A stretch of DNA of 64,000 bases, from positions 1-64,000 of the forward strand of contig JARXPG010000002.1 in the NCBI GenBank assembly GCA_029887785.1. The letters are read 5' to 3'. The stretch's first letter is position 1, and each line of letters begins with the position of its first letter. A model generated the notes under the pieces. It saw nothing but the letters and a program-made list of their open reading frames with translations. It was not told where the DNA came from and searched no databases. Made by a program: the position numbers and the translations under genes. Shown here piece by piece: positions 43,322 to 62,554 of this stretch. Source of the DNA: Candidatus Nezhaarchaeota archaeon (GTDB lineage: Archaea; Thermoproteota; Methanomethylicia; Nezhaarchaeales; WYZ-LMO8).

Positions 43322-43975
43322 ATGCATATACCAGATGGCTTCCTAGATGTTACTACAGCTACTCTAACATATCTCGTAACCATCGGTTATGGCTATGTAG
43401 CATGGAGGAAGTTCAAGGCCTTCTTCACCCCTGAAGGAGTATCACTCCTAGTTGTCCTCTCAGCAGCAATATTTGTGGCTCAAATGTTGAATTGGCCCTT
43501 ACCTGGAGGCACTAGCCTTCACTTTGTTGGTGGAGCATTAGCTGGAATATTGCTTGGCCCTCTGCTTGGCTTCATATCATTAGCGCTAGTTGTTGGCGTT
43601 CAATGCATCATATTTCATGACGGTGGAGTAACTACGCTTGGAGCCAACCTCTTAAACATGGCGATAATCGCAGTACTAGTGGGTTATGCAACATTCAAGT
43701 TTACCATCAAGCTCATAGGAAATAAGCGAAGCTCAAGAGCTATAGGTGCATTTATAGGTGGATGGCTGAGTATCGTGCTAGCTGGTCTTGCGTGTGGTCT
43801 TGAGATAGGTTTGTCGCCGGCATTTGGCTTTTACATTGACGTCACAGTCCCAGTAATGGTTGGGTGGCATGCGATATTAGGTGTAGTAGAGGGTGTGATA
43901 ACTTCCCTCGTGGTTGACTTCATCTACACGAGATTACCTATGGTGATCTATAAGGGTGAGGGGGTAAAAGCATGA
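43322..43975 (+). CDS. cbiM: ECF metal transporter substrate-binding subunit CbiM/NikM
   Basis: This 217-residue membrane protein begins MHIPDGFLD, whose free N-terminus, His2 and nearby residues form the metal site of CbiM/NikM. Further signature loops are GGTSLHFVGGALAGILLGP and FHDGGVTTLGANLLNMAI. The PDGLE-domain gene downstream and the F430 cluster upstream argue for nickel rather than cobalt. It overlaps the next gene by four bases. Confidence 0.92.
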   Translation: MHIPDGFLDVTTATLTYLVTIGYGYVAWRKFKAFFTPEGVSLLVVLSAAIFVAQMLNWPLPGGTSLHFVGGALAGILLGPLLGFISLALVVGVQCIIFHDGGVTTLGANLLNMAIIAVLVGYATFKFTIKLIGNKRSSRAIGAFIGGWLSIVLAGLACGLEIGLSPAFGFYIDVTVPVMVGWHAILGVVEGVITSLVVDFIYTRLPMVIYKGEGVKA

Positions 43976-44283
43976 GCAACCTCATCAAGAGCAAGAAGGC
44001 TTGGGCAACAATAATAGTACTACTAATTCTAAGCCCAATATTTGGTGTAGTACTAGCTGATATCGTCGGCTATCATGAGCCTCTCGATCTAGCAGCTGAA
44101 GCTATAGGTCTTCGTGATGTGAGCGAGGAAATAACTTGGACTCCATTCTTCGACTACAACGTTCCTGGTTTGCCAGCTGAGATCGGCTACATCATTAGTG
44201 GAGCTATAGGGGTCATTGCTATCACGATGATAGGTTATGGAATCTTAAAATTGGCTGAGAAGAGAGTGAGAAGAAAGGTGTAA
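43972..44283 (+). CDS. PDGLE-domain accessory subunit of the nickel importer (NikN-like)
   Basis: This 103-residue protein has an N-terminal helix, an extracytoplasmic segment and a second helix. The core FFDYNVPGLPAEIGYIISGAIG with preceding GYHEPLDLAAEAIGL corresponds to the PDGLE domain, which in nickel transporters is either fused to NikM or a separate NikN. Cobalt systems instead carry CbiN. It is the main sequence argument that this cluster is for nickel. Confidence 0.85.
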   Translation: MSNLIKSKKAWATIIVLLILSPIFGVVLADIVGYHEPLDLAAEAIGLRDVSEEITWTPFFDYNVPGLPAEIGYIISGAIGVIAITMIGYGILKLAEKRVRRKV

Positions 44284-44286
44284 TCT

Positions 44287-45078
44287 TTGTCTAAGAGCCT
44301 CTTATCATCGTTTTTAAACGGCATAGCCGATGTGTTGGAGGTCTTCTCGTTTGAGAGGAAAGAAGATGTAAAGCTCTTTGACGACAGATCTATTTCTATT
44401 TCACTCTTAACGCTAGCTATCGCTGTCTCTTTCTCTAAGACCGTATACTCACCTCTAATAGTGCTCTTACTAGTAGCCATACTAGCAAGGCTATTCAAAG
44501 TAGATGTTAGATACACGCTGAAAGTAGCAAGTGTAGTGGCTATCTTTGTTATGGGAGTAACGCTCCCAATGGCTTTGTACCAAGCATACATCAGCTACGA
44601 TGTTAAAGGAGGCTTGCTCGCAAGCTTAATGCCAATAGCGAGCAGCGTCACCATCCCACTAATTTTAAGAGCTGTCGCAGCAGCTACTGCCGTAACGCTT
44701 ATGGTTCAATGCTTGGGGTTAACAAGATTAATGAAGGTGCTTAGAAGTCTAAGGTTTCCTCCAAAGCTCCTCTTCGTGTTAACGCTATACATTAGGTACA
44801 TACCCATAATGCTAAGACGGCTAGTAAGATTATTTTCAGCTCGTGAAGCGCGTTTACTGAACAAAAGTAAATTGAGGAATTCTTGGTTTATGCTGTCAAC
44901 GGTAGCAGGGAGCTTACTTATAATTGGGTTTGAAAAAGCTCTTAGATTGCAAATGGCTCTTAAAGCCAGGGGACTCCACTATGATTTGATCCCAACATAT
45001 TCAGGAAAAATTAGCTTACAGGATTCAATATTCATGGCATCAATGCTTGGATTAGCTTTCATGTTGGTGTTGATGTGA
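44287..45078 (+). CDS. cbiQ: ECF transporter transmembrane subunit CbiQ/NikQ
   Basis: This 263-residue T-component has about five helices. The two coupling helices contain Ala-Arg-Gly-type signatures: SAREARLLNKSK and LQMALKARGLHYD. FPPKLLFVLTLYIRYIPIML is the usual preceding region. It connects CbiM/N to the ATPase. It is intact, in contrast to the second copy at 60691-61483, and may be able to serve both. Confidence 0.88.
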   Translation: MSKSLLSSFLNGIADVLEVFSFERKEDVKLFDDRSISISLLTLAIAVSFSKTVYSPLIVLLLVAILARLFKVDVRYTLKVASVVAIFVMGVTLPMALYQAYISYDVKGGLLASLMPIASSVTIPLILRAVAAATAVTLMVQCLGLTRLMKVLRSLRFPPKLLFVLTLYIRYIPIMLRRLVRLFSAREARLLNKSKLRNSWFMLSTVAGSLLIIGFEKALRLQMALKARGLHYDLIPTYSGKISLQDSIFMASMLGLAFMLVLM

Positions 45079-45079
45079 A

Positions 45080-45961
45080 ATGAGTGAAAATGAGCCCCTA
45101 AAGCCACTAATAGAGCTCGAGAATGTGTCATACACATATCCTGATGGAACTTGCGCGCTTAAGAAGGTTAGCGTTAAAATACCAGAGAAGAGCATTGTTG
45201 CGATAACGGGGGCTAATGGATCCGGTAAGAGCACCTTGCTTCTGATAATGGCCGGCTTATTAGATCCTCAAGAGGGCTGCGTTAGGTTTAGAGGCATAGA
45301 CGTGAAGAAGCTCGGACACAAAGTAAGGCGCGAAATAGGAGTGGTCTTTCAAGACCCCGATGATCAGCTCTTCGCACCAACAGTCTACGACGACATAGCC
45401 TTTGGCTTAAGGCTTCTGAAGTTAAGCGAGAAAGAAGTTAGAGCGCGCGTCTATGAGATAGCGCGCGAGCTGGGCATCGAGAACTTGCTGAATAGACCTC
45501 CACATAGGCTTAGTGGTGGCGAGAAGCGTAGAGTAGCTCTCGCCACAACTCTGATCTTAAATCCATCAGTACTACTCCTAGACGAACCCTTCTCAGACTT
45601 AACTCCTTACGCAGTCGAGTACTTAATGGACCTTATCATGAAGCTTAGAGACTCTGGGAGGACCATAGTGTTCACGAGTCACGATGTAGACATCGTCGCT
45701 GAGTTATCCGATTACGTCTACGTCTTAGCCAAAGGTCAGTTAGTAGCTCAAGGAGAGCCTAACGAGGTTCTGTGCAACGATGAGCTGTTAGGCAAAGCCG
45801 AGATGAGACCTCCAACAGTGACGATCATATATAGAGAGCTTATGGGCTATAGTGACAGATGTCCCATTAAGATGTCAGAACTTTTATCAATACTAAGAAG
45901 TAGAATCGTAGCCCCTCATTCGCATAATGGTGTGGCATGCAATAAGTTTGCCTTTAAGTAA
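45080..45961 (+). CDS. cbiO: ECF transporter ATPase CbiO/NikO
   Basis: This 293-residue ATPase has Walker A TGANGSGKST (43-52), a Q-loop GVVFQDPDDQLFAPTVYDDI diagnostic of ECF A-components, signature LSGGEKRRVALA and Walker B LLLDEPFSDLTP. The usual LDP after Walker B is replaced by SDLTP. It is the only CbiO in the window, so it may energise the second importer as well. Confidence 0.93.
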   Translation: MSENEPLKPLIELENVSYTYPDGTCALKKVSVKIPEKSIVAITGANGSGKSTLLLIMAGLLDPQEGCVRFRGIDVKKLGHKVRREIGVVFQDPDDQLFAPTVYDDIAFGLRLLKLSEKEVRARVYEIARELGIENLLNRPPHRLSGGEKRRVALATTLILNPSVLLLDEPFSDLTPYAVEYLMDLIMKLRDSGRTIVFTSHDVDIVAELSDYVYVLAKGQLVAQGEPNEVLCNDELLGKAEMRPPTVTIIYRELMGYSDRCPIKMSELLSILRSRIVAPHSHNGVACNKFAFK

Positions 45962-56723: not shown

Positions 56724-59700
56724 TTAACACGTCTCTTCTTCTAAGATCTCTTCGGTCTCCAGGTATTCCCTCTCAAGTCTCTTAATGGTCTCCGCATCGG
56801 CCCTCCAGTATCCGCGCTTTGCAGCTTCAAGTAAGCTCTTAACCACTTTGCGATAAGCAAATATATTCACTTTCTTAACTCTTTGCGACCTCTCCCTATC
56901 GAACACCACATTATTTGCGACCCCTTCCCACATCCAATCTTCTATGCCTCTAAGCGTTGCAGCAAGACCAAGCATGTATTCAACACGATCAGCTATCTTA
57001 GTTGCACCATTATATCCATGCTCCAGCATAGCATCAAGCCACTTAGGATTCATAGTTCTCGTTACAATTCCTCTCTTAATGGCCTCTGAAACATCTTCAA
57101 CTTTAACCACCTCCCTAGTGGAATCAGCAACAAGCACTACTGGTCTCCTTCCACTTCTATCCTCAACGGTCTTTGCTAGACCTCCGAGGAACTCGTAGTA
57201 GTGGTCTAGATCTGTTATTTCATAGTCGATGGCGTCCCTCACCTGGGTTACGAGCTCGATATTTGATGACAAGAAGTTTAAGAGGTCCTTCAACTCTACA
57301 CTTCTCTCCCTCTCTCCGTAAGCGAACTTCATGCTCTCAACGTAAGCATTGACTAAGTCGATCTCACTCTTCCACCTTGAGGTCTCTATTAACGTCGTCA
57401 AACTAGTGGCATACTGACCTTCTGGAGGACCAAATATCCTGAAGTAAGCGCTCTCTCCATAAGTTTCTTTAGCCTTGTTGACGTTAGCCTTCACGTAGTT
57501 CATGTCCTCTGGCTCATCGAGATTCGCCACTATTCTTACAGCTCTATCAAGGAGCTCTACGAGGTTGTAGAATGTGTCCCTAAATATCCCGCATATCGTG
57601 ACCACTACATCTATTCTAGGTCTACCGAGCTCTGAGAGAGGTATTACTTCGAGCTCCCTAATGTACAGGCCTCTCCAAACAGGTTTTACACCTAGAAGGT
57701 GGAATATTGCTGCTAGCGTTTCTCCACCGGTCTTCATGGTCTCAAAGGCCCATAAAACAACGCCAACGGCCTTCGGGTACCTCCCATTCTTCTGGTAGAA
57801 CCTCTTAAGGTATTCTTCAGCTATCTTCTTACCTCTCTCCGCGGCTATTTCAGTTGGCAAGTTCGTAGGATCGAGTTGATACATGTTCCTCCCGGTCGGG
57901 TAAACATCTGGGTTCCTAACAAAGTCCCCACCGGGACCCGGCTCGATGAACTTCCCCTCAAGAGCGTTTAAGATGGCTTCAATTTCGTCGGACACCATCA
58001 CCTTCTCGTAAACTTGCTTAAGGAACTCTAGTGACTTTACAATCTTCTCCTCACTTACTCCGCTTATCTTCGGTATTGATTGGTTTAGGAGGTAGTTCTT
58101 TATGATGTTCTTGACTTCTTCCTCGACTTCGCTTAGGATCTTTCCATAGGTCCTTCCATCCGGAGACACCATATGCGGCTTCTCTAAGACCTCTAAGTAG
58201 TTTAGACCTTGAGACTCTACGATGAGCCTATGTAGGCTGCTAATCTCTCCTCTATCATATCTTGAGACACACGCTAAGTACGCTATAATATCGTCGAAGG
58301 ATGGTTTGTCTCCAAGTACGTGGAGTCCTCTAGGAACTTTTGAGCGCTTAAACTCCCACAACTTATCGTATATCTCCTCAACGCTTTCACCAAGCTCATA
58401 CTTCCTTGCTTTCTCAAGAATCCTCTTAGCTACTTCAGCTGCCTCCTCTTCGCTGTACTGTAAGCGATCGAAGTACTCGGACAATAACTTCTCGATCTCC
58501 TGAAAATCGCCATAAAGGCCACTGTCCATTAGCGGGGGGCTTGCATGATTAATTATGAGGGCATAGCTCCTCCTTTTAGCTATTGAGGACTCTGAGTTGT
58601 TAAGTGCATGGTAAACGTATACGTTTGGAAGATCAGCTATCAACATGTCTGGAAAGCACTCAGACGTTAGGCCAACTTCCTTTCCCGGCAAGAACTCAAG
58701 TGTGCCGTGAGTTCCCAGGTGGATTATGACATCTGCTTTAAACTCCTCTCTAATCCACTTGTAAAAAGCTATGTATTGATGATGAGGAGGAAGGCTCTTG
58801 TCGTGATACACTTTCGTGAGATCCTCGTGGCAACCACGTGATGGTTGAAGCCCTATGAACACGTTTCCAAGAGTTATGCCTGGAACCATTATTAAGTCTC
58901 CATAAGCCATTATGTTACCCGGTGGTGGGCCCCATTCGTCAACCACTTGATGTATAGCGCTTCCTGGCAACTCTTTAAGCCACTCGTTATACTTCTTCAA
59001 GGGAACGTGAGTCACTTCGCCTAGCTTTGGTTGAACCCAGTTTCCAGAGTTGATTATCCCCTTAGATATGAATATGTTCCTTATTTCTTCACCTGAAGGA
59101 GTCATTGTAACGTTGTAGCCCCTATCCTTCAAAGCCTTGATCAATCTGGATAGGCTCTCGAAGACGTTGAGGTAGCTTGCTTTACCTAAATTTTCCTCTC
59201 CAGGTGGATAGTTATATATGACTATGGCTACCCTCTTCTGATTATTCTCCTTTCTCCTCAAGTTAACCCATCTTATCGCTCTCTTCACTAGCTTCTCGAC
59301 ACGATCATCAATTGCTACGTATTCATCAAGCTTTACGTCCCCGACGACCTTCCTCCTAATTGCGTGCGTAACTATTGGTTCAATCCTACCATCAAGTTCC
59401 GGTAAGATGACAGTGGTGACAACCTCTACTGGAGGGAGACCATGCTTTGATTTAAGCCACTCATCATAGGTCTTCGTGAACAAGTATACTCCATGTAGCA
59501 CGGGGACGTTAAGTTTCCGTAGTACCTCCTTAGTCTTACTGTGATCGCCACCTATTGGACCTCCTGCAAACCTAAACCATAAAAGGTCTATCAATAAGTC
59601 GATAATTGGTTTGCCGTTCAAGAACATGAACTTCTCTATTGCTAAGTAGTACCTCAAGTCTGAAGAGAAGACTGGTATAACCCCTAGACCCTTCTCCTCT

Positions 59701-60467
59701 AACTTCCTTACTATCAATTCGACTGCAGGATAGAATTGATCATAATAGTAACCACTGTAAGATAGTAGACCGATTAATGGGCGATCTTTGAAGTTGTAAG
59801 ATTGAAGGTATTGTTGGACATCGATGAAGATCTCGTTAGTTTCGAATTTCTTGATGTACATAGAGGGCATGGCCACTGGTTCGGGTATGGCTACATTAAC
59901 TTTCACTCCACAGTACTCCTTCAATAACAAGAGAAGCATGGCATAGTAACTTTGAAACGTTGGATGTTCACGATATCTCAATAGTAAGCAATAGTTCCTA
60001 GCATCCTTGAACACGCCGAAAGGCAAGATCTTGCCTAACCTCTCAAATCTATCCCGCATCTTCAGTATAGCTCCGTAATCCAGTTTCCTACCCTTGAAAA
60101 ACCGCTTCATTAGAGGCATATTCCTTAAACTCATGAACCTACCAAGGGAGAAGCTTCCAAGTCGTGTGAGACTATTGATTTCTGGAGATCCTCCAACAAG
60201 GACGATAACATTGTTCTTAAGATCCTTAAGAGTCTCACATACCAACTTGCTAACGTGATCTCCCCCCATGACGGTGAGCAAAACAATGTGAGAAGACCTT
60301 AGATCATCAACAAACTTCTGAAGATCAACCTTCCCTTCATTGACTTCAAGGGTGTTATAAAAACGGAAGTCAAGAGCCCCACCAATAACCTCGTTAACCT
60401 TCTTCACAGCTTCTAAGAGACATGGCCTGAGAGAGTAATCGACCATTGTTATCCTGCATACAACCAC
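56724..60467 (-). CDS. cobN: Cobaltochelatase large subunit CobN
   Basis: This 1247-residue protein is normal length for CobN/BchH. Conserved segments are [38 protein letters not shown] (read across its course), [40 protein letters not shown] and [14 protein letters not shown]. It inserts cobalt into the corrin ring together with the ChlID protein. The GTG start is preceded by GAGGTG at five bases. The operator and a TATA box lie just upstream. It may also handle another tetrapyrrole metal step, but cobalt fits the neighbours best. Confidence 0.95.
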
Positions 60468-60481
60468 AGTAACACCTCGCT

Positions 60482-60497
60482 GGATGGATTATCCAAC
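60482..60497. promoter_or_regulatory. Cobalamin-operator candidate, cobN-chlID operon
   Basis: Read on the transcribed strand the site is GTTGGATAATCCATCC, with the 11-base palindrome TGGATAATCCA as its core. The reverse-strand TATA element CTTTATAT (60507-60514) lies 25 bases from the site's promoter-distal end, so transcription would start inside it. The ribosome-binding GAGGTG follows three bases later. Confidence 0.7.
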
Positions 60498-60690
60498 TGA
60501 TTCCCCATATAAAGCTTGCCTACGCCTTTCCCCAAGAGGTTAAGTACCCTTCACATCAATCCTAAGATGAGGTGTCTTCCTCTTTGCTTTACGTCAAGTA
60601 AACTGAACATCATCAATGTCAGCGATTTCGATGTATTCTCCAAAGTCCAGCACCCATGAGCATCACGTTATGAATTAATGGCCTATAATT

Positions 60691-61483
60691 TTATAGAAGT
60701 AGCTTGTCAATTAGCGCTAATAGCACTATCATAATCAATGTTACCACTCCGATTGAAATGTGGCTTCTCGGAATAGATTCGAGCTTAAGGTTAAACAGAT
60801 TGCCTCCCTCGTACCCCCTAGCCATCATAGCTATTCCAACTCTCACAGCTCGATGGTAGGATCTTACAATTAGCATGCCAAAGAGCTCTCCATAAGCTCT
60901 GAGTCTCGTAATGTATCCAACATCTTTTGAATGGCTTCCTCTAGCTTTTTGGGCTCTATACATTCTACTTGCTTCTCTAGAAATTACGAAAAAGAATCGA
61001 AGCGTGAGAAGAGTAGTGTCTAGTAGAGCCGAGGGTACGCGAAACCAAGCTAAAGCTCCTAGCACACTAATTATCGAGGTTGTTGAAATTAGAAGATTTA
61101 GAATAGTAACTGTTGCTAGGCAGCGCGTGAATATTAAGATGGAGAGGAGTAATCCTTCTGAGTAAACTGGAAAGACGATGCTAAAAACTACTGTTGAACC
61201 GTAAGTAAATGAATGAATGATGGTGACTATTGATATTATGTACAGAGGGTAAAGAAGCCGCTTGAAAAAACTGCTTAATTGGGACTTTGAATATTACGGC
61301 AATTAATAGGCATGAGACGAAAACTAAGAGGATTGTTTGCCAATGAGCCATTAGTGAAGTGGCTATTATGGTTGCTATCGTACAAATCAGCTTCACTCTA
61401 GCATCTAGCTTATAGAGCAGACTCTTCGCATTATCATCTCTAAGCTCCAGGCTATGATCCATGAAGTCATATTCTAACTTCAT
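60691..61483 (-). pseudogene. cbiQ: Second CbiQ, split by a frameshift at an A6/T6 run
   Basis: Frame one (61483 to about 61270) gives the N-terminus, LLYKLDARVKLICTIATIIATSLMAHWQ, and ends in nonsense after KQFFQ. Removing one T from the T6 run (A6 on the plus strand at 61265-61270) continues as QFFKRLLYPLYIISIVTII and runs without interruption into LRFFFVISREASRMYRAQKARG and GIAMMARGYEGG, both CbiQ coupling signatures, ending at 60691. The joined protein has the full T-component length. It is either an assembly indel, a true inactivation, or ribosomal frameshifting at the run. No CbiO gene follows. Confidence 0.85.
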
Positions 61484-61589
61484 TCCTCATCCGTCTTAAC
61501 CTAAATTCCCTACCGATGATTAGGAAGGTGAAGAAGCTTATTGTCGTCAATATGCCCACAAGTGGATCTCCACTAAGCCACTCAAACAT
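61467..61589 (-). CDS. 40-residue single-helix membrane protein in the cobalt importer operon
   Basis: ATG 61589 opens a 40-residue frame ending at TGA 61469-61467, overlapping the cbiQ start by 17 bases and three bases after the cbiN stop. The product begins MFEWLSGDPLVGIL, has one helix (TTISFFTFLIIG) and ends with basic REFRLRRMRNEVRI. That is the layout of a small bitopic protein with a cytoplasmic positive tail. GAGGG lies just before the ATG. Its packed position between cbiN and cbiQ suggests a small subunit of the transporter. I do not recognise the family. Confidence 0.65.
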   Translation of the reverse strand: MFEWLSGDPLVGILTTISFFTFLIIGREFRLRRMRNEVRI

Positions 61590-61592
61590 CCC

Positions 61593-61877
61593 TCATCCCT
61601 CACTCTTAGACTTTCCAAAAACCGTGGGCGTTAAGTAGCCAATTATGAAGCCGCTCAGAGCCCCGACAATCGTAAAGGCAATGTACTCACCAACCTCATC
61701 TAGCTCTATTAAGTGTCCATAGCTAAGCCCAAGCCTCTTCGCCTCTTCCTCCATGATGGATATGTAAGCAGTTTCCATGTCTCCACCTACGATGAACAAG
61801 CCAATGTACGTTGAAATCATCATGGTGATTACTATAATTATCATTAGGAAGAGGGAGCATTTAGTGAAGTTATCCAA
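61593..61877 (-). CDS. cbiN: CbiN-like subunit of the cobalt ECF importer
   Basis: This 94-residue protein has two helices with an extracytoplasmic loop. GGDMETAYISIMEE resembles the GADGxA region of CbiN and EYIAFTIVGALSGFIIGYLTPTVFG the second helix (E-x-x-F...GA...GY). It differs from the PDGLE protein of the nickel cluster and is the argument for cobalt here. It overlaps the end of cbiM by eight bases. Confidence 0.75.
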   Translation of the reverse strand: MDNFTKCSLFLMIIIVITMMISTYIGLFIVGGDMETAYISIMEEEAKRLGLSYGHLIELDEVGEYIAFTIVGALSGFIIGYLTPTVFGKSKSEG

Positions 61878-62523
61878 GTCTCTTCACCCCTCTAAGAACT
61901 TCAGGGCGGCTTACTACAATGTATTTAACCATTATCGCTGTGATTATGGACTCCACGATTGCTAGGGGGAGCTGGGTGGGCATGAAGCCTAGCGAAAGCA
62001 GACCCCAATGGTACACGAAGTTCTCTGAATACAGCGAGAGAGCTAGCTGCCCAGCTGTTGTAAGGTAAGTAGCTATATCCCCCATGAACCCCGCAGCTCC
62101 AGCCGAAAGCCAAATCGGAGCCTTAAATCTTCTGAGGGCAACATACACTCCATATCCTATAAAGCCTCCTACAACTCCTAGAGACACGGTGTTAGCACCC
62201 AACGTTGTCAACCCACCGTGGGCCAAGAACATTTGAAAGAACAAAGCTATGAAAGCTAACACCACGCTCTCAAAAGGACCAACAATTATGGCTGAGAGGG
62301 CTACCCCACAAGGATGTGAGCATGATCCTGTAACTGGTACTGGAATGTGCCATACAGATAAGATAAATATCACAACCCCCATGAAGGCCAGCATAGACAT
62401 GTAAGTTGGATCCTCTCTCCTCCTTCTTGCAATCTTCGCTACGCCTACTATCAAAAATGGTATCGCAATGGCAAACCAAACTACTACCCATAATGGAGAA
62501 AGAAGACCATCCATTATATGCAT
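61870..62523 (-). CDS. cbiM: ECF cobalt transporter substrate-binding subunit CbiM
   Basis: This 217-residue membrane protein starts MHIMDGLLSPLW when ATG 62523 is used, which restores the exposed Met-His metal site that CbiM needs. The frame is open to a GTG at 62532, but that would bury the site. Loops VTGSCSHPCGVALSAIIVGP and LAHGGLTTLGANTVSLGVVG correspond to the two other signature regions, with cysteines (SCSHPCG) in place of the more usual residues. It heads the operon cbiM-cbiN-small protein-cbiQ under an operator at 62534-62554. Confidence 0.92.
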   Translation of the reverse strand: MHIMDGLLSPLWVVVWFAIAIPFLIVGVAKIARRRREDPTYMSMLAFMGVVIFILSVWHIPVPVTGSCSHPCGVALSAIIVGPFESVVLAFIALFFQMFLAHGGLTTLGANTVSLGVVGGFIGYGVYVALRRFKAPIWLSAGAAGFMGDIATYLTTAGQLALSLYSENFVYHWGLLSLGFMPTQLPLAIVESIITAIMVKYIVVSRPEVLRGVKRLG

Positions 62524-62533
62524 AGGAATCACT

Positions 62534-62554
62534 GGCTGGATATATTATCCAGCC
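62534..62554. promoter_or_regulatory. Cobalamin-operator candidate, cbiM2 operon
   Basis: This is the most perfect site: arms GGCTGGATA and TATCCAGCC are exactly complementary around TAT. The reverse-strand TATA element (plus strand CATATAAAAC, centred near 62563) puts the transcription start near 62537, inside the site. The cbiM ATG at 62523 follows 11 bases later. Confidence 0.72.

Follow-up and report, generated by a model that had tools for sequence, protein, structure and literature searches.

The closest described counterparts of the locus reported here are the group I cobalt importers, CbiMNQO, for which CbiMQO structures are available (5X3X and 5X41). The action of CbiN in these cobalt ECF importers remains poorly understood, since it binds only transiently (PMC7689651). 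The part of the nickel and cobalt ECF importer literature that we covered (PMC2667541, PMC7689651) names the components M, N, Q, O, K, and L only. Small subunits with one helix are known from other membrane complexes—KdpF, CydX, and AcrZ have roughly 30-50 residues and a large membrane partner (PMC4325964, PMC7267776).

Here we describe a small ORF in a cobalt ECF operon of the window, the whole 64,000-nucleotide stretch of Candidatus Nezhaarchaeota DNA that was analysed. The original prediction proposed a hidden membrane protein in this operon; the protein proves to be genuine, conserved, and separately encoded, with one helix. In the reading that we consider probable, this small protein serves a cobalt importer of CbiM-N'-Q-O composition as a one-helix subunit, in effect a first helix (TM0) of CbiQ that can be detached; N' is the divergent protein in the CbiN position.

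The Small ORF and Its Product

The small ORF (61467-61589, reverse strand) is a complete frame of 40 codons with an ATG start, and its product, the candidate TM0 subunit of the T component, reads MFEWLSGDPLVGILTTISFFTFLIIGREFRLRRMRNEVRI. Between it and the stop of the upstream gene, N', lie only three bases (61590-61592), and a GAGGG abuts its ATG; both features were predicted and both are present, the GAGGG at an unusually short spacing. In relatives, GGAGG lies 5-8 bases upstream of the start. The further description of the frame, as 40 residues with one helix and a basic C-terminal tail, also holds. There is a single hydrophobic stretch, with a Kyte-Doolittle peak of 1.75 (19 residues), flanked in the window by a head of charge -2 and a tail of charge +4.

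Ten small proteins, counting the window's and those of the nine Bathyarchaeia genomes introduced below, align nearly gap-free, with W4, L5, G7, D8, P9, G12, L14, T16, F19, F20, F22, L23, G26, and L31 invariant. Because the head is negative (-1 or -2) and the tail positive (+4 to +7) in all ten members, the N-terminus is predicted to lie outside and the basic C-terminus in the cytoplasm. The tail would thus be on the same side as the cytoplasmic N-terminus of CbiQ, in agreement with the topology of the fused forms described below. Variability along the helix is periodic, and the conserved side consists of G12, T16, F19, L23, and G26 (p = 0.007, from permuting 20 positions of ten related sequences).

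The small protein matches no Pfam or NCBIfam family. Three identities were tried and rejected: it is not CbiN, having one helix and not two (hhalign 3.3%); a relation to N' has no support (hhalign 0.2%); and its best match among solved chains is at chance level (E=0.5).

Evidence for a Conserved Gene

The same junction in a Bathyarchaeota MAG contig (WUQU01000465.1, here L027) and in a second MAG (L030) holds frames 79% and 76% identical to the window's. We combined these three small-protein sequences into a search profile, which found the small ORF in nine of 257 Bathyarchaeia genomes (E = 2e-28 to 3e-16). In all nine the small protein lies between the same two genes, with 53-79% identity to the window; it is more conserved than the upstream N' (25-66%). 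Compared with its two nearest relatives, the window's ORF shows identities of about 0.52 at third codon positions and of 0.81-0.94 at first and second positions. The dN/dS ratios (NG86) are about 0.03 against L030 and about 0.07 against L027, rough values with dS near saturation; the ORF is, as judged from these comparisons, under purifying selection. The original prediction had looked to conservation of the frame in related archaea and to a low dN/dS for its support, and the two results bear it out.

The identities at the junction, the nine profile matches, and the codon-position pattern place the ORF far beyond chance as a gene, and its sequence marks it as a genuine one encoding a single-span membrane protein; conservation and codon pattern rule out a spurious ORF. 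Local decay is conceivable, given that the window's cbiQ is frameshifted, and the small frame could then be a chance ORF or a piece broken off a decaying CbiQ. This explanation is extremely improbable: it is already contradicted by the same three lines of evidence, seven genomes (the window's included) carry a stand-alone form with an ATG and its own stop, the forms fused to CbiQ appear to be derived, and dN/dS is well below 1.

Neighbouring Genes of the Operon

The S component, CbiM, is encoded at 61870-62532 (reverse strand; first ATG 62523, MHIMDG) and matches PF01891 (E=2.3e-52) and NCBIfam PRK08319 (E=3.4e-69). N' follows at 61593-61877 on the same strand; its 94 residues begin at a TTG that overlaps the end of cbiM, and it is conserved in the same loci as the small ORF. 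This gene had been taken for cbiN; however, PF02553 (CbiN) matches neither the N' of the window nor those of the relatives scanned. TIGR01165 gives E=2.9 in one relative, and hhalign of N' against CbiN gives 45%, limited to 27 columns in the second helix. By its sequence N' has the two-helix layout of CbiN and is not recognisable as CbiN. An AlphaFold model of a CbiM-N' fusion is of low confidence, indicating topology at most. At three other loci (L093:2186-2713, L095:2175-2720, and L098 on the reverse strand), a frame of 174-181 aa between CbiM and CbiQ looks like two CbiN-like units in tandem.

The T component, CbiQ, lies downstream (60691-61462, reverse strand). Its frame shifts at a six-base A/T homopolymer (61265-61270); both halves match CbiQ (PF02361), the second frame with E=8.9e-36. 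The frame change may be a sequencing or assembly error, a recent mutation, or recoding. A 17-base overlap between the small ORF and cbiQ had been claimed, which needs an earlier in-frame ATG at 61483 and is probably not real. The start is likely ATG 61462 (MDHSLELRDD), four bases past the small-ORF stop, because unfused relatives start CbiQ at the equivalent spot; in these six (L027, L030, L064, L065, L066, and L068) the start ranges from a one-base overlap to five bases past the stop. Tight translational coupling of the small ORF and cbiQ by adjacency is likely.

No cbiO follows cbiQ in the window (60468-60690); the next gene is cobN-like (56724-60467). The relatives L027, L030, and L064-L070 have cbiO in their operons, and the closest CbiO relative in the window's genome is the ATPase of a second ECF operon, at 40% identity. 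With a frameshift in cbiQ and no cbiO behind it, the window's copy of the importer may be decaying. A cbiC-like frame from 62759 and a cbiD-like frame from 63439 lie on the other side; these genes and the cobN-like gene were named by reading their translations. With cobalamin-pathway genes flanking the operon on both sides, the gene content makes cobalt the likely substrate. The CbiM/NikM-like protein of the second ECF operon (43322-45961, forward strand) falls in another CbiM clade; it is encoded together with a two-helix N protein of 103 aa, Q, and O.

A palindrome, TGGATNNNNNATCCA, lies upstream of cbiM at 62537-62551 (forward strand). The window holds five exact copies (46168, 52378, 60481, 62537, and 62756), against 0.10 expected; they are intergenic and adjoin cobalamin or cobalt genes, and several relatives also have the palindrome upstream of cbiM. 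It is likely the operator of a cobalt/cobalamin regulator, and the copy upstream of cbiM probably serves this operon. A winged-helix gene stands divergent to cbiM in L027, L067, and L068, with about 310 aa in L027.

Distribution and Origin

A CbiM profile matched 54 of the same 257 Bathyarchaeia genomes. The nine best CbiM matches (E <= 9e-68) coincide exactly with the nine genomes that carry the small ORF; none of the remaining 45 (E >= 8e-54) has it. In a CbiM tree of 42 sequences, the ten small-ORF members form one clade with support 97/96, and presence of the ORF requires one change of state, versus 9.1 in shuffles. The small ORF is thus a feature of one monophyletic CbiM subclade, where all ten sampled members carry it; the notion of a general part of cobalt importers is not borne out (10/10 vs 0/45).

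In the sister group, the twelve loci with measured borders leave only 15-46 bases between the N gene and cbiQ, and therefore have no room for the small ORF. The N protein there is canonical CbiN, Pfam-confirmed for L002. This distribution bears on another explanation, which we consider unlikely: the small protein and N' would jointly replace canonical CbiN as a two-piece accessory module, N' contributing the loop that covers the CbiM metal site on the extracytoplasmic side, and the small helix holding N' or CbiM to the T component. The two proteins share the same ten loci, and the sister clade lacks both and has canonical CbiN; there is also a precedent in nickel systems, where NikK and NikL replace NikN (PMC2667541). 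However, the fusions described below link the small helix to CbiQ and not to N', N' alone has the two-helix layout of CbiN without requiring the small protein to complete it, and the small protein shows no sequence relation to CbiN or N'.

Within the window's own class, the small ORF occurs in one of 40 genomes. Among 398 genomes of the phylum, searched with the three-row profile and a ten-row profile, the only convincing match is the window's own copy; plasmid and viral collections yielded no relatives of the small protein, and a CbiM peptide-pattern scan of all GTDB species returned two relatives. Because the small ORF is otherwise confined to Bathyarchaeia among the class and phylum genomes searched, the window's operon probably came by transfer from Bathyarchaeia or from a relative. 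Contamination is argued against by the second ECF operon, which is on the same contig and whose CbiM/NikM falls with copies from the same genus and the same family.

Fusion to CbiQ and Proposed Role

Three of the nine Bathyarchaeia genomes (L067, L069, and L070) encode the small protein and CbiQ as one in-frame fusion, with the small protein at the N-terminus. In L069, MFEWLYGDPVNGMLMTLAFFTFLILGRNLKLRQINKEK is joined by a linker to SALQRLDARVKFICAI, with which CbiQ proper begins. In L070 a CTG (L070:1501) stands in the fused gene where L067 and L069 have ATG, and the gene may start there. The three genomes are nested inside the small-ORF clade of the CbiM tree, so the stand-alone gene is probably older and the fusion derived.

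The original prediction placed the role of the protein at either the CbiMN pair or the T-component interface; we favour the latter, CbiQ side because three genomes fuse the small protein to CbiQ. This does not amount to proof of contact—CbiM and N' are likewise fused to each other in L067, L069, and L070, and CbiM, CbiN, and CbiQ are fused in some relatives, so that a fusion in this operon shows membership of one complex but need not mean direct contact. CbiM, a CbiN-like part, and CbiQ follow one another in a single open frame of 607 aa at L094:1471-3294 and of 615 aa at L096:1450-3297; G482, G488, G499, and G507 have frames of similar length. In an AlphaFold model of the fused L067 protein, CbiQ folds well and Foldseek matches this part to EcfT and CbiQ chains; the added helix has a pLDDT of 40-56 and no reliable position. 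The model speaks neither for nor against contact between the helix and CbiQ.

The fusions also bear on a looser role for the protein. Its size, single helix, and separate gene recall one-helix transporter partners such as AcrZ (PMC7267776), and it could be a stand-alone, loosely bound modulator, for example of importer turnover or activity under plentiful cobalt; a fixed subunit accords better with the permanent fusion to CbiQ in three genomes and with the constant place of the gene in the co-transcribed operon, and we regard such a modulator as quite improbable.

We favour a transporter subunit because the small protein occupies the same junction in nine genomes, is under purifying selection, is fused to CbiQ in three genomes, and co-occurs with one CbiM clade; its charge pattern and conserved helix face also speak for a place at CbiQ. 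That it belongs to the transporter has good support; its topology, its contact with CbiQ, and a stabilising role are what we infer. The small protein would be a dedicated subunit of a divergent archaeal importer made up of CbiM, N', the small protein, CbiQ, and CbiO. Its helix probably packs beside CbiQ as TM0 via the conserved face of G12, T16, F19, L23, and G26, with the basic tail near the cytoplasmic N-terminus of CbiQ, and it would help the T component to assemble or be stabilised and to dock or hold CbiM. A broader proposal, which we put forward tentatively and regard as possible though doubtful, is that this Bathyarchaeia importer class dropped canonical CbiN and has the divergent N' and a one-helix T-component subunit instead, with metal loading or S-component docking controlled via a CbiQ-attached helix and not via a transiently bound CbiN.

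Comparison with Known Systems

These results add a 40-residue protein family that neither Pfam nor NCBIfam models cover. With its different N protein and its additional helix linked to the T component, the importer provides a second natural design for comparison, and the versions fused in nature could be used directly as single-chain constructs in structural studies.

As in the group I CbiMNQO importers, CbiM is followed by a two-helix protein at the N position, then by CbiQ and, in relatives, by CbiO, and the operon adjoins cobalamin biosynthesis genes. The locus differs in that the N protein is unrecognisable as CbiN and in the extra one-helix protein before or fused to CbiQ, which is without counterpart in the solved chains. 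The NikKMLQO nickel importers resemble it in employing two accessory proteins in place of the single N protein of related systems (PMC2667541); the small protein and N', for their part, match no Pfam or NCBIfam family. Like KdpF, CydX, and AcrZ, the small protein is short and has a single helix; it is conserved and encoded with its presumed partner. There is no detectable relation to these subunits, however, and the locus differs from them in being an archaeal ECF transporter with natural fusions of the small protein to that presumed partner.
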